Part shown: in pieces, positions 15,981 through 21,568 of the stretch
Numbering within the stretch: position 1 is the first letter of the stretch
Layout: every line of letters begins with the position of its first letter
From: a virus
IMG/VR virus record: IMGVR_UViG_3300023284_002194
Span: 1 to 21,568 of that record
Length of the DNA: 21,568 nt
Strand: one strand, 5' to 3'
Notes under the pieces: model-generated
Databases searched by the model: none
Told to the model about the DNA's origin: nothing
What the model saw: only the letters and a program-made list of their open reading frames with translations
Made by a program: the position numbers and the translations under genes

Positions 15981-17129
15981 TTATCCCAGCAAGAGGGCCA
16001 AATGTTCGGCTTTCCCGATTGCAAAACCGTACAAAATCGAAACCCTATATTGCCTTGCATGGAAACCGCCATACTCACTGACCAAGAAAGAAAGTCCGGA
16101 AATGGGATCGGTTACCACTTCCTCGGCATCAGCACTATCCCCACCGATTGGTTTCTGTGGCACCCGTGTCGCCAAACGTAAGGCGTTTCTTGAAAATGCC
16201 ATGTTGGCCACATAGTCGGCGGCCAAAGTTACGGCATTGTTATCGGGAACGGTTACCCCTCGGATACCCGGCAAATTTATTGCAAAGCTTCCACCTGAAA
16301 GCGCGGTTTTCACAACATACTTGAGGCTGGTATCGACGGCGAAATCCACAACATCACCCGCCAATATTGTACCTGTTCCTGTATCGACTGCCACCGTGGT
16401 GGTACCCTTTACAAGTCCAGCGCCATTGTTCACCAAATAACTGGCACCAGTTCCTGCGGTCTGTGTTTTGATTCCTTCGCTTTCTCCCATATTAAAACCG
16501 AAAACGGGCAATCCAAGCATACCCCTGCGCAAAAGTTCCGGGTCACCTGCCTCATTGACATTTGTTAACTGGGTCAAGCTCCTTATGTTTACTCCTGCGG
16601 CGGTATCCACGACAAGGTGACGATCACCTTTGGGCGCGCCGTTATCATCGAGAATTTTTTTCAGTTCTGCGGCATCACCCAACTTATTGGTTCCAAAAGG
16701 TGTGGTGCCTGCGATTCCAAAAGCTCGGGAAGCGTTGACAAAAAGACTGGCAAGGTCTGCCTCGATCTCATTTACCAAAACACGTATGGATTGCTCCATT
16801 TGCTGTTGGAAAATTGAAGTAAAGGTTGTCGCATTTTGGAGACCCTTTTGCTCCTCACCCGTGTAATGAAAACCAGTATCGCGGAGTTTGTTTAAAGTGA
16901 TTGTGAGGTTTCCGATAGTAGAATCGGGCAATGCTGGGGGAATATTTGAAGGGGTGACATCCCCTGCGGTCTGCGCTGGGGTCACGGGCCAGCGAATGGT
17001 TTCATCCTTTGCGGCTCGTTCTTCGGTTGAGTCTCTTCCTACACGTGGGATAAAGCCCACTAATTCACGGGATACGACGTCAATCGCCCCGTATATATCT
17101 GGAAATAAATTGGTAAGTGTGTTGGCCAT
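15981..17129 (-). CDS. Major capsid protein, P22 coat-like
   Basis: This 382-residue protein matches the P22 coat-protein-like family of HK97-fold capsid proteins. Its N-terminus MANTLTNLFPDIYGAIDVVS, followed by RELVGFIPRVGRD, is the family's typical opening. DTGFHYTGEEQKGLQN follows at about residues 86-101. A Gly-rich insertion with AGDVVDFAVDTSLKYVV sits in the middle, as in the family's inserted domain. The C-terminus SEYGGFHARQYRVSILYGFA is also typical. It forms the icosahedral shell around the scaffold encoded just upstream. Translation should be strong: AAGGAG lies eight bases before the ATG. P22 itself has a short tail, while this phage carries long-tail genes, so this capsid type is paired with a siphovirus-like tail here. 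Confidence 0.88.
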   Translation of the reverse strand: MANTLTNLFPDIYGAIDVVSRELVGFIPRVGRDSTEERAAKDETIRWPVTPAQTAGDVTPSNIPPALPDSTIGNLTITLNKLRDTGFHYTGEEQKGLQNATTFTSIFQQQMEQSIRVLVNEIEADLASLFVNASRAFGIAGTTPFGTNKLGDAAELKKILDDNGAPKGDRHLVVDTAAGVNIRSLTQLTNVNEAGDPELLRRGMLGLPVFGFNMGESEGIKTQTAGTGASYLVNNGAGLVKGTTTVAVDTGTGTILAGDVVDFAVDTSLKYVVKTALSGGSFAINLPGIRGVTVPDNNAVTLAADYVANMAFSRNALRLATRVPQKPIGGDSADAEEVVTDPISGLSFLVSEYGGFHARQYRVSILYGFAIGKAEHLALLLG

Positions 17130-17152: not shown

Positions 17153-17866
17153 TTAATCGACGACCTGGACCTCACCCTTTTTTATGATTTCCATTCGGGC
17201 ATCCGGCCTCAGGCTGTTAAATTCGCCTTTACTCATGGTCTTACCAGCCTTTGGTTTCCCTCCGGGCTTTCCGCCTGGGCCAGGTCTTTGGTCGTTTATT
17301 ACGTCATCTGGGTGACTATCGAGATAAGCTTTAATTCCCACATCCAGGTCCTTAAGCTCATCCCCGTCTTTCCATTTGACGGTTTTATTATCTTCCTCCA
17401 AGACCACTGAACCTTCGCGAATTATGTCTTTCGCATGAATATCAGCGCTAAAGATCTTACCTCCCAGCTTTGAGTTTAGCGCTTCTTTAAGAATCCCATG
17501 TTTATAGGATTTCTCAAATTTCGTCGCTTTCTCATTGCTTGTGGTAAGCTGGTTCGTCAAATTCGTGAGGGATGTTTCCAGATTTTGGAGCCGGGCATCT
17601 TTACCGGTAAGCTCTTTACCGTTTTTTTCTCCGTTTGCCAGTTTTCCTTTTAAGTCCGTTTGAAACGTGCTTAAATCATTGGTTACCGGGTTAAAGCCCA
17701 ATTCTTTTAATACTGAATCAACTACCTCAAGTTTCTGTTGAACCGCCTTTACAAGTCCTTTCCCGCGTTCCCTCTCTTGGTGGATCGCGTTAGAAACTAC
17801 CTCGTAAAGTTCTGTGCCGTCGGCATCCTTCATAAGGAGTGCTTTTACGTCATCAAGTGTTTTCAT
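17153..17866 (-). CDS. Capsid scaffolding protein
   Basis: This 237-residue highly charged protein is placed immediately before the major capsid gene, the position of scaffold genes. The N-terminal two thirds are helical and Lys/Glu-rich, with a coiled-coil-like stretch around residues 90-125 (LQNLETSLTNLTNQLTTSNE). A flexible Gly/Pro/Lys linker follows (GPGGKPGGKPKAG). The C-terminal tail MSKGEFNSLRPDARMEIIKK resembles the helix-turn-helix coat-binding end of many scaffolds. It should guide coat assembly and then leave or be degraded; no protease motif is visible in it. The ribosome site is AAAGGTG upstream of the ATG, and the gap to the capsid start is 23 nt. It could be annotated as a minor structural GP20-like protein. 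The call rests on composition and position. Confidence 0.75.
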   Translation of the reverse strand: MKTLDDVKALLMKDADGTELYEVVSNAIHQERERGKGLVKAVQQKLEVVDSVLKELGFNPVTNDLSTFQTDLKGKLANGEKNGKELTGKDARLQNLETSLTNLTNQLTTSNEKATKFEKSYKHGILKEALNSKLGGKIFSADIHAKDIIREGSVVLEEDNKTVKWKDGDELKDLDVGIKAYLDSHPDDVINDQRPGPGGKPGGKPKAGKTMSKGEFNSLRPDARMEIIKKGEVQVVD

Positions 17867-17920: not shown

Positions 17921-19060
17921 TTATGCGGCCTTCAACCCTTTTATTTCTCTGAGGGTATTTATATCACGGTGTCTCTCAAATCCACGGAGTTCATCACGCC
18001 ATTTTGAATTTGATCTCTTGAAATTCTTGGCACCTTGTACACCCAAAATTGACTTTTGCCTTTTGTCCGAAAGCCCATTAATAAAACGAATGGCGCCTTT
18101 GTTCACCTGTTGTTTGGTTTCACCCTCGAATACATAAGACATTACACAGGTACAATGGGGGTGGAATGGATAGCGCGGCAATTTATTTAGGGGATATACG
18201 CCTTTGCCCAAACCAAACAAATTGGCCTCTGTATTGAAATCACAAATATCAAATTGAGCGTGGCGGGAGGAAAGCCGATAGCGGATCCCCACCACATCGG
18301 GATCGTCAATGGCGCCTTGATATTGACCTTGGCTATATGCTTTTGCAATTTCTGTTCGTGCGATACGCTCAGAATTGAATCGGGATTTGGCACGTATGGC
18401 CCGGTCCATAGCTTTGTTGAGGGCCTGTTCCGATGTTCCACGTGAAACATTGATAACGTTTTGGTATGACTTTTTCAGGCGTTGGGTGGGCGCCTCGGCT
18501 TGGGCTAATCTTTCGACTTTCCGCATGGATTGCCTAATATCCCTTTGAAATTCCCGGAATCCGGTTTTATCACCGCGCATTAACCGCCGAGCCTGGGCAT
18601 CAAGCTGGGTGATATGGCTTGCCAAATCCGCCTTTTGTAGATTCTGCTTTCCAAGCGCACTGGCTAAACCCGTCCAGGATTTGGCCTGCTTTAGGCTTTC
18701 TTTGATTGTGGATTTGATGTCCGCCAATCGAGTTAAATCACTGATTCTGTTTGAAAGTTTGAGATCATCACCTGACCAGAAATTATTAAGCCAGAATTTA
18801 CGAAAGCCCACTTCGTCATCAAGCTGATCAATATTAATCACGCGCTCAACAATTTTCACGGATCGATTAACAATTCGGTCAGTAAGAATAACACCCAAAC
18901 CAATTTCGGCCACGGATAGGCGAACTGCCTCATCCACAGACTGCCCAGCATTAACTCTCTTTCTTATTTCACGGGAAAGCCTATTAAATGTGGGTTCCAT
19001 TTGGCTTGCGAAAATATCAATTTCCCGGTGAGTCGGTTGCGGTGGGGCTCTTTCTGCCAT
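17921..19060 (-). CDS. Minor head morphogenesis protein (Mu gpF / SPP1 gp7-like)
   Basis: This 379-residue protein belongs to the Mu F-like minor head family, which is found inside or near the portal and assists prohead assembly or DNA ejection. The C-terminal domain is clear: SERIARTEIAKAYSQGQY (230-247), then RHAQFDIC (266-273), LGKGVYPLNKLPRYPFHPHC (284-303) and CTC. The conserved His267, Asp271, Cys273, His300, His302, Cys303 and Cys305 look like the putative metal-binding set of this family. The N-terminal 200 residues are charged and helical. The gene follows the portal by about 10 nt. Codons 204-209 (NVSRGT) encode a perfect parS-like 16-mer, listed separately. The family call is confident; the exact role in this virion is inferred. 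Confidence 0.92.
   Translation of the reverse strand: MAERAPPQPTHREIDIFASQMEPTFNRLSREIRKRVNAGQSVDEAVRLSVAEIGLGVILTDRIVNRSVKIVERVINIDQLDDEVGFRKFWLNNFWSGDDLKLSNRISDLTRLADIKSTIKESLKQAKSWTGLASALGKQNLQKADLASHITQLDAQARRLMRGDKTGFREFQRDIRQSMRKVERLAQAEAPTQRLKKSYQNVINVSRGTSEQALNKAMDRAIRAKSRFNSERIARTEIAKAYSQGQYQGAIDDPDVVGIRYRLSSRHAQFDICDFNTEANLFGLGKGVYPLNKLPRYPFHPHCTCVMSYVFEGETKQQVNKGAIRFINGLSDKRQKSILGVQGAKNFKRSNSKWRDELRGFERHRDINTLREIKGLKAA
18434..18449. promoter_or_regulatory. parS-like site (ParB/Spo0J recognition sequence) inside a head gene
   Basis: The plus strand reads TGTTCCACGTGAAACA, identical to the common bacterial chromosomal parS variant (consensus TGTTNCACGTGAAACA). It is a near-perfect inverted repeat with one asymmetric pair. 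It lies wholly within the minor head gene, spanning the codons for V-S-R-G-T. At equal base frequencies an exact 16-mer on either strand is expected about 1e-5 times in a window of this size, so chance is unlikely. No second copy and no parA/parB gene are in the window, so any binding protein would come from the host or from elsewhere in the phage genome. Function is inferred from sequence identity only. Confidence 0.75.
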
Positions 19061-19070
19061 TTAATATTAA

Positions 19071-20609
19071 TTAACCATCCGTTCCGTTTTTTTCGCGGTC
19101 CTCAAGATCCGTCCGAGATTGATCTTCCCCTATTTTTTCAAATTCCTCAATGGCTTCCATGACCTTTGGATCATCTTTTTTCTTTTCAACTTTGGTTTCG
19201 AAGGCCATCCGTTTTATTAAAAGTGTTGCCTTTGCTGGTAATTCCATGAGCAATAATTTATCAAAATCTTCGAGCTCTTGTGCATCGTTTTCCGGTGCAA
19301 AGCTGTCTGGATATTCGACGATATATTCGAAGGGTTCATTTGGGGTGTATAGTTTAAAAATTTCAATGATTTTATGCTCCAAGGTAGAGGCAATCATGGA
19401 GGTTTTTTTAAGACTGGTTTCATGTGCGATAAAATCCCATTGTTTGGCAATGCCGGATTCCTTTTTTTCAATCGCGATCACACCTTTTTGTCCGGCGATT
19501 CTAAAAAGATCGTCTCTTAATTTTTCATTACTATCAATAAGTCCAGCCAATATCGCGGGGTCCGGACTTGCAAAATCTGGGGGGATAGTAGTGCCCATAG
19601 GTAACCAAACGATATTATGTGTGCCAATGGATGTATCACCGGGCTTATCAGATTGCATATAAAATACTGCGAATCCCTGGGCCCGTTCCTGATCCCTAAT
19701 CTCAGAATCTTTATTAAACATTGCGGTATTTATTCTGGCTAAATCATAAAATGGTGGTTGTACTTCAATCTCTCTAACATTTCTACGCACGGTTGAAAAA
19801 ACAGGTATTACCGGAATCACATCCAGGCCATGCTCAAATGAATCAATGAGAAAACGTTCGCCTTTGGTATTAATTCCAAATAGTTGCCATTTCTCATTAT
19901 CCCAACGGGAGATCCTTTTTTCTTTTCGGACTATTTTATTTTTGAAAAAGAGAAATCCTTCAATGCCTTCGACATCAACCGGGTCCTCATTGAATTCAAT
20001 CCATATTAAATTGCCGAAATCGTCGGTCTTAAAATCATTAAGAACACTTGCTCGTTTGATGTGTACATATGGAAAATTTCTTTGAGCAATAGCTGTTTTT
20101 TTGTCAGGTGGTTGTTCCCTGAAATTATCAACTATAACAAAAGTAACACCGTGGAGTCTTGCCGCCGTGGTGGCCTCATCCATAAATTTATGTAATTTAT
20201 GACCTGAGTTATCTGCGTTTTTAATAAAGCCATGTATAAACATTCCATCTTCAACTACTTTATCAAGCACCCTGACTTCTCGTTTGATTTCTTCGCCAAA
20301 AACAGGATCCAGCATAGCATTGATAATCGAGAACAAATAATTTTTATAAAACACGTTTTGGCGCCGGTCCTCATAAAAAATCTCTCTTGTGTGTGGGACC
20401 AAATAGCGGCCATCAAAAAAACCACCCTCTCCATAATAGGCGTCGTCCATGAACTCATAAATGTTTTTCTGAAGGATTGGGGTATAATTGACATTATCCC
20501 GGGTTGTGGGCCTCCAAGTTTGTTCCGTTAATATTTTGCTATTGTCAGTATCGGATCCGACTCTTTGTTTTGCTCCGCTTGCGGGTATTCCGCCTTGTGT
20601 CAGTGGCAT
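19071..20609 (-). CDS. Portal protein
   Basis: This 512-residue protein should form the dodecameric ring at the capsid vertex through which DNA enters and leaves. The length is usual for siphovirus portals, and the gene sits directly between terminase and the minor head protein, the standard order. Supporting features are an N-terminal region rich in YxxF/aromatic turns, a central stretch with DLARINTAMFNKDSEIRDQE (about residues 290-310) resembling the stem-helix region of portals, the downstream IAGQKGV segment, and an acidic, disordered C-terminus (DQSRTDLEDREKNGTDG). The region from RINTAMFNKDSEIRDQ on looks like the DUF4055-type portal family, but I could not run a profile search. The ribosome site is GGGGG, six bases before the ATG, immediately after the terminase stop. 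Confidence 0.88.
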   Translation of the reverse strand: MPLTQGGIPASGAKQRVGSDTDNSKILTEQTWRPTTRDNVNYTPILQKNIYEFMDDAYYGEGGFFDGRYLVPHTREIFYEDRRQNVFYKNYLFSIINAMLDPVFGEEIKREVRVLDKVVEDGMFIHGFIKNADNSGHKLHKFMDEATTAARLHGVTFVIVDNFREQPPDKKTAIAQRNFPYVHIKRASVLNDFKTDDFGNLIWIEFNEDPVDVEGIEGFLFFKNKIVRKEKRISRWDNEKWQLFGINTKGERFLIDSFEHGLDVIPVIPVFSTVRRNVREIEVQPPFYDLARINTAMFNKDSEIRDQERAQGFAVFYMQSDKPGDTSIGTHNIVWLPMGTTIPPDFASPDPAILAGLIDSNEKLRDDLFRIAGQKGVIAIEKKESGIAKQWDFIAHETSLKKTSMIASTLEHKIIEIFKLYTPNEPFEYIVEYPDSFAPENDAQELEDFDKLLLMELPAKATLLIKRMAFETKVEKKKDDPKVMEAIEEFEKIGEDQSRTDLEDREKNGTDG

Positions 20610-20620
20610 AATAAACCCCC

Positions 20621-21568
20621 TTAGGCTCTGATTTTTCCGAAGACAGCTACCTGAGCACGTACTATTTTGTCGCTATAACCATACCTCAAGGCATCGATGG
20701 CATTGTTAAAAGAATCTTCCGGGATTGGTAGGAATTTTCCTTCTTTATTTTTCATCCAAGAATAATTTCTCAATTCTTTAATGAGGTTTGTGCTACTGCG
20801 AGTTACCTTTAAATTAAATCTTTTAAGGAAGTCTATGCCAATTTTTATGGAATCTTTGCCTTTTGTGCATCCCTTGATATTAAATCCATGACCAAAAATT
20901 TCATCAATGGTTTTTGGTTCGGCGCAATCACCATAAATGAGAAAGATTTTAGGTACCCGTAATGCTCTCAGTTTATCAATAATCATTGGATTTGTCAGGC
21001 CACGATCATAAAAGTGCTCATGGGCATACAGGTCCCTGCCCTGGATTCCGGTTTCTATGAATGTTGTTGGGTCTATTGTGTATCCGAAGTCCATGCCTGC
21101 CCTGGTTTCAAGATCATCGGGAAGCTGATCAACGAGTTCAAAATCTGGAAATATTAATCCTTCGACTTGGCCGATTAGGCCCTGTCCATATATGCGCCAC
21201 CAATTTGAATCGCCCTTTCTGCTTTCGATTGATCGTACTATGTTTTCGTGCAAAAATTCATTATCAAGATATGTGCTCTGATAAAATCCTACACCCGATT
21301 TTTGCAAAAGCTCATGAGCCCAAAATTCTTTAGTCGGATTGAAATCATATATGATTTTTTCCTTGGTTCTAATTTCAAGCTGATCAGCCGTGTCCTTTGT
21401 GATATTGTTTACCTCATTGATAAAAAGCCAATCCCGTCGAGAGCCCAAGGCTTTTCTCATGTTGTCCACGGCAAAAAATTCTACAGCACTATGGCCGAAT
21501 GACATTTTTTGCTCGGTCTTATTGTGCATAGACTTTGAATATTTTGGACCAAGTATTTTTGTAAAGTC
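20621..21568 (-). CDS. terL: Terminase large subunit, C-terminal part (5' end outside window)
   Basis: This is the motor and nuclease of DNA packaging. It translocates DNA into the prohead through the portal and cuts the concatemer. The frame is open to the right edge of the window, so the ATG at 21529 is internal; 315 residues are visible. A Walker-B-like strand WLFINEVNN lies at fragment residues 47-55 with the catalytic-type Glu at 52, and a DFNP motif at about 75-78 fits the end of the ATPase domain. The C-terminal RNase H-like nuclease shows its three expected acidic positions: MDFGY (D160), IYGDC (D214) and NAIDALRYG (D292). The DALRYG ending is typical of PBSX/SPP1-type large terminases. 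The N-terminal half, with Walker A, lies beyond the window. The stop is followed after 11 nt by the portal ATG. The identification is strong. Confidence 0.95.
   Translation of the reverse strand, partial: DFTKILGPKYSKSMHNKTEQKMSFGHSAVEFFAVDNMRKALGSRRDWLFINEVNNITKDTADQLEIRTKEKIIYDFNPTKEFWAHELLQKSGVGFYQSTYLDNEFLHENIVRSIESRKGDSNWWRIYGQGLIGQVEGLIFPDFELVDQLPDDLETRAGMDFGYTIDPTTFIETGIQGRDLYAHEHFYDRGLTNPMIIDKLRALRVPKIFLIYGDCAEPKTIDEIFGHGFNIKGCTKGKDSIKIGIDFLKRFNLKVTRSSTNLIKELRNYSWMKNKEGKFLPIPEDSFNNAIDALRYGYSDKIVRAQVAVFGKIRA

Follow-up and report, generated by a model that had tools for sequence, protein, structure and literature searches.

Phage P1 and the mycobacteriophages with parABS encode their own ParA, ParB and centromere, and a phage-encoded ParB usually acts on a centromere of its own rather than on the chromosomal parS. 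Extrachromosomal prophages with par genes are also known (PMC7157519). It is established that ParB slides from parS as a CTP clamp (PMC12704722); TGTTTCACGTGAAACA is taken as the parS consensus (PMC10197239), and GATGTTTCACGTGAAACATC is the 20-bp palindrome in a crystal structure of ParB with DNA (PMC7383237). The closest described phage is phi29, whose chromosome is trapped in spores via the host Spo0J (ParB), as stated in a source that cites Meijer et al. 2005 for it (PMC9437464); it is the only functional case met in the literature examined. The word phage is absent from a review of ParABS (PMC7333895). By title and abstract no survey of parS in phages was found, and one may exist among the subscription papers, most of which lie outside the search, or in bioRxiv, which lies outside it as well.

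The DNA analysed here (the window) is a linear IMG/VR fragment of 21,568 bp, off whose end the terminase gene runs. Its minus strand encodes the structural module of a tailed phage, with terminase, portal, MuF-like, scaffold and P22-type coat genes, followed by further genes, among them one for a tape-measure-like protein. The relevant features are:

15981..17129, minus strand: major capsid protein, P22 coat type (PHROG 283, E 6e-83; PF11651)
17153..17866, minus strand: probable scaffolding protein (PF06810, E 7e-6, below the curated cut-off; PHROG 194, E 7e-4)
17921..19060, minus strand: MuF-like head morphogenesis protein, 379 aa (PHROG 1657 'head morphogenesis', E 1.6e-27)
18431..18451, minus strand: 21 bases, AATGTTTCACGTGGAACATCG, identical to two phi29 sites by sequence comparison
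18432..18451, plus strand: extended 20-bp parS site, GATGTTCCACGTGAAACATT, which fits RATGTTNCACGTGNAACATY
19071..20609, minus strand: portal protein (PHROG 145, E 2.2e-37)
20621..21568, minus strand: terminase large subunit, its N-terminal part cut by the contig end (PF17288, PF04466)

The MuF-like ORF matches other head PHROGs as well and has no Pfam match at E 1e-3. Family searches of this 21,568-bp fragment of an incomplete genome return no match to ParB_N (PF02195) or to the ParA-type AAA_31 (PF13614), which agrees with the initial annotation in its statement that no partition gene is visible here. A tRNA search of the window finds none.

A motif search of the window locates an exact parS, TGTTCCACGTGAAACA, at 18434-18449 on the plus strand (TGTTTCACGTGGAACA in the minus-strand reading), a perfect match to the chromosomal-type parS TGTTNCACGTGNAACA. 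With up to 3 mismatches allowed, nothing else in the window resembles parS, and the second match is this place read on the opposite strand. The chance expectation for TGTTCCACGTGAAACA in the window is 1.0e-5 from base composition and 9e-6 under a first-order Markov model, and that for any of the four forms of TGTTNCACGTGNAACA is 1.9e-5. The initial annotation had described a perfect site, an expectation of about 1e-5 and a position in V-S-R-G-T codons of a Mu F-like gene, and all three hold on recomputation. In the frame of the MuF-like ORF the codons are AAT GTT TCA CGT GGA ACA TCG (N-V-S-R-G-T-S), and the parS codons have a probability of 8e-4 given the peptide NVSRGT and the codon usage of the fragment. 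In the alignment the site falls within a variable stretch of the protein, ahead of a RIARTE motif. The extended site GATGTTCCACGTGAAACATT equals the crystal palindrome at 18 of 20 bases. The parS observation is thus right, and it is not chance in any simple sense. The site lies in phage DNA, amid genes for terminase, portal, MuF, scaffold and coat; host contamination as its source is ruled out by its position within this run of head genes.

An overlapping out-of-frame ORF (18187..18450, minus strand) begins with MFHVEH at the parS (ATGTTTCACGTGGAACA). It is presumably a by-product of the motif and not a gene, and parS within phage genomes may yield further false short gene calls of this kind.

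Phage phi29 possesses four exact copies of the TGTTCCACGTGAAACA 16-mer, and Meijer et al. 2005 reportedly tied its trapping in spores to parS sites. The copy at the end of gene 10 (connector) has the same 21 bases AATGTTTCACGTGGAACATCG, the same frame and the same N-V-S-R-G-T-S as the window, in a gene unrelated to the MuF-like gene. The connector parS is exact in all 18 distinct phages with a connector at least 75% identical to that of phi29 (11 read by sequence, 7 from matches in which the 16-mer falls within that gene), including each of six connector genes added without prior view of the state of the site. The six parS codons are unchanged from phi29 in PZA, B103, Goe1 and Chedec 11, while outside parS only 85-96 of the 207-221 same-residue codons are identical between phi29 and B103, Goe1 or Chedec 11, so that it is the DNA and not the protein that is kept in the phi29 connector. 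Among 11 genomes of the wider phi29 family, with carriers partly known beforehand and KonjoTrouble read in part (21,541 of 26,061 bases), the exact site occurs in six and is lacking in five, the more distant members often being without it.

The TGTTCCACGTGAAACA 16-mer is present in 147 of 50,697 phage records (213 places), against about 2 places expected by composition, and the palindromic form TGTTTCACGTGAAACA in 286 of them (824 places, each palindrome counting once per strand); these counts are not independent because many records are close relatives. Reversed, arm-swapped (with the same core) and core-mutated control motifs each occur in none of the 50,697 records. The motif occurs in phi29-like phages, in Listeria phages such as P100, and in Otagovirus phages of Pseudomonas, where it lies in the terminal repeat. 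Further carriers include phages of Arthrobacter, Microbacterium, Gordonia, lactobacilli and Stenotrophomonas, microviruses, Spiroplasma phage 4 and an inovirus. Phages of Escherichia, Salmonella and Klebsiella do not appear among the matches listed (60 of the 147 records and a partly overlapping second 60 of them; 60 of the 286). These genera are heavily sampled as phage hosts and, to our knowledge, lack chromosomal ParB. The breadth of parS across phages is the surprise here, and the class is real. In Pseudomonas phage phiPsa267, as in several related Pseudomonas phages, parS lies inside the direct terminal repeat, and bajarodino virus 6 (Inoviridae, 5,910 bp) has six palindromic parS sites, mostly near gene ends.

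In IMG/VR the parS form is found in at least 120 loci in a first scan, 18 of which (of 120) have GA ahead of the motif; all 18 appear again among at least 120 GA-extended matches. The extrapolated parS total is roughly 800 at least, against about 36 expected by composition, a soft comparison because a mutated control, TGTTCDACGTHAAACA (nine 16-mers), also gives at least 120 matches. The reversed 16-mer ACAAAGTGCACCTTGT is unusually rare, with 1 match against about 63 predicted by composition. With parS and TGTTCDACGTHAAACA both at 120 or more and the reversed control itself rare, the case for enrichment is carried by the phage collection.

The first scan comprises 141 sites, 82 of them in mechanically called ORFs of at least 90 aa (67 sequence groups). 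The frame V-[PS]-R-x-T accounts for 50 of these 82 coding sites and is preceded by D or N in 33 of the 50. Both scans together amount to 222 loci with 284 sites, of which 189 are coding, 133 in the V-[PS]-R-x-T frame, in 120 groups; since 102 of the 222 loci were picked for GA in front, statements on the preceding D or N and on flanking bases are confined to the first scan. One representative protein per group over both scans, leaving aside six loci linked to dense arrays and two short proteins, gives a set of 97 with terminases, portals, a phi29-type connector, head and tail proteins, endolysins and replication proteins. Phage_Mu_F is matched by three of the 97, one of them with a score slightly under the curated cut-off. 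The peptide [ND]-V-S-R-G-T-S turns up again in proteins unrelated to each other, as expected if the DNA and not the protein is selected. Some of the parS-bearing genes look bacterial (CHASE2 and guanylate cyclase in locus L009), so some host DNA may be mixed into the IMG/VR sites.

Three long viral contigs are dense in exact parS: L045 (G027, 116,662 bp) with 24 sites, L357 (G086, 104,344 bp) with 25 and L408 (G087, 96,347 bp) with 9. Each has a terminase match, interrupted by internal stop codons in G027 and G087; a ParB_N domain is found in none of the three. In G027, 23 of the 24 sites have an identical asymmetric form and lie on the same strand, packed into two dense arrays.

The bases next to the motif are also biased in the first scan, with A before it and T after it. 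All four flanking bases (R-A before, T-Y after) are present at 19 of 73 distinct coding sites and 5 of 57 non-coding sites, and at none of 69 distinct mutated control sites. The window site has all four, an agreement of 1 in 64 at equal base frequencies. Lone coding sites in unrelated genes have them in 8 of 53 cases (first-scan groups) or 4 of 46 (groups of both scans), a share above 1 in 64 yet weaker than overall, and some lone sites may therefore be due to chance.

Relatives of this phage were collected with the capsid gene (210 relatives, the best 80 of the 210 loci being examined) and with the portal gene and portal alignment (25 relatives); the MuF protein alone as a query finds none. 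Nine portal relatives possess a MuF homologue that aligns along its length, the site included (L142, L203, L204, L206, L207, L209, L210, L211 and L220, of which L210 and L211 look like the same phage), with 29-46% identity to that of the window. At the position of VSRGT they have QTEKM, AAEGK, ITEEA, ATDKH, VSQET, QVEKL, TTEAA (twice) and ATKTF; neither the parS nor the VSRGT peptide is present in any of the nine, and L148, a partial MuF homologue outside this set, also has no parS. The best 80 of the 210 capsid loci contain no parS at up to 2 mismatches, and the 25 whole portal-relative records none beyond one poor place with 2 mismatches. The parS is so far private to this phage among the relatives compared, as judged from their sequences. 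The initial annotation looked to homologous head genes for conservation of the 16 bases and to related phage genomes for the same motif, and in these relatives neither is borne out. It also named V-S-R-G-T without conserved parS bases as the finding that would speak against a role for the site; none of the nine homologues has the peptide, so this case does not arise among them. With VSRGT not kept in the nine, protein constraint does not explain the parS, and it is ruled out as the cause by this together with the codon probability of 8e-4. As the homologues are distant, a recent gain and a loss of the site look alike in this comparison, and as no relative examined has it, nothing points to selection within this lineage itself.

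Alignment of the portal against bacterial genome contigs gives no match. The capsid protein has ten distant relatives in bacterial genomes (41-50% identity), which comprise an Anaerolineales MAG, Verrucomicrobia-type genomes, Gilliamella, a gammaproteobacterial MAG and a Peregrinibacteria MAG, and are too mixed for a host to be named. None of the ten capsid-relative loci contains parS, the closest place having 3 mismatches. Among these genomes a TIGR00180 ParB is present in 8 of 10 and an exact TGTTNCACGTGNAACA in 4 of 10, the backwards control motif being found in none of the ten, and hosts of such phages thus commonly have ParB/parS machinery. All four exact host-genome sites are TGTTCCACGTGGAACA, one base off the form in the window at a free position.

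The window's parS is probably a loading site, putative as yet, for the chromosomal ParB of the host, which would make the phage DNA a passenger of the nucleoid. In an infected cell, ParB of the host would load at 18434-18449 as a clamp around the phage DNA and, bound to CTP, spread outward from there. The phage genome could then share the ParABS/SMC handling of the host, be held near the nucleoid and be passed to daughter cells, dormant cells or spores when lysis is delayed. For this phage we infer ParB binding at the site, use of this parS form by the host and a benefit to the phage. Such capture, which the initial annotation suggested as serving placement, segregation, condensation or titration, is indirectly supported because parS is in excess over controls in phages, the same site and peptide arise in unrelated genes, the flanks agree and phi29 offers a precedent; what does not stand is conservation among the nine homologues. 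Against it are also the single site in 21.6 kb, compared with four in phi29 and up to 25 in some viral contigs, the weaker flank preference at lone coding sites, the one-base difference from all four candidate-host sites, the bacterial look of some parS-bearing IMG/VR genes, and the 5 of 11 wider phi29-family genomes that have no exact site. The general pattern is strong, and the window, with its single and so far private site, illustrates it modestly.

A neutral 16-mer without function, arisen by chance in the variable MuF stretch, would fit a single site that no examined relative shares, the weaker flanks at lone coding sites and the roughly 36 exact matches that composition predicts for IMG/VR. 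Those 36 are, however, set against an extrapolated total of at least 800, and all four flanks of the window site also fit, which leaves chance an unlikely account. Still more doubtful is a ParB that the phage itself encodes outside this fragment and that uses the site in a phage-plasmid lifestyle. Extrachromosomal prophages with par genes do exist (PMC7157519), and a ParB_N domain is present in 4 of the 50 parS-bearing viral records searched; the other 46, though many are fragments, have none, nor does the fragment analysed here. Phage ParB proteins, moreover, usually recognise their own centromeres. Just as improbable is a use against the host, in which replicated sites titrate ParB/SMC and stop chromosome segregation, or spreading ParB blocks transcription or defence on the phage DNA. 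Sites that are single or many per phage, with up to 24-25 per contig where ParB_N is not detected, would suit such a role, but a single copy per genome would draw little ParB at the start of infection, and phi29 is reported as a case of retention (PMC9437464).

With capture of host ParB as the preferred reading of the window, we lean slightly towards a wider one, in which host parS would be a widespread, repeatedly evolved phage part. It would occur in 1-25 copies in unrelated tailed, filamentous and microvirus-type phages of ParB-bearing hosts, fitted into any gene or gap that tolerates it. Such phages, most of which would lack their own ParB, could then ride on host ParB while infection is delayed or dormant, and the MuF site of the window would be an independent recent gain. 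If true, host ParB would be a shared machine of phage biology, even virulent phages could persist in dividing or dormant cells, and parS should be confined to phages of ParB-bearing hosts.

Among known systems, phage-plasmid ParABS has parA and parB beside its centromere, unlike the window with no match to PF02195 or PF13614. The parABS of P1 and of mycobacteriophages resembles the present proposal in that phage DNA is partitioned through a ParB-type clamp, and differs in that these phages bring their own genes and centromere, whereas the window presents only a host-type site. Chromosomal ParABS agrees with the window in the parS sequence and its extended palindrome; the window's parS, in contrast, is situated in a phage head gene, with no parAB detected in the fragment. 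Phi29 differs in its four sites and sporulating host, compared with one site in 21.6 kb of an incomplete genome, and its virion is of a kind unrelated to that of the window (P22-type coat, MuF, portal of PHROG 145). Both have the exact 16-mer in a structural gene and in the same frame, and the annotated phi29 genes include no ParB. Capture of host ParB by a phage parS is a known and thinly studied phenomenon, to which the window adds a probable new instance.
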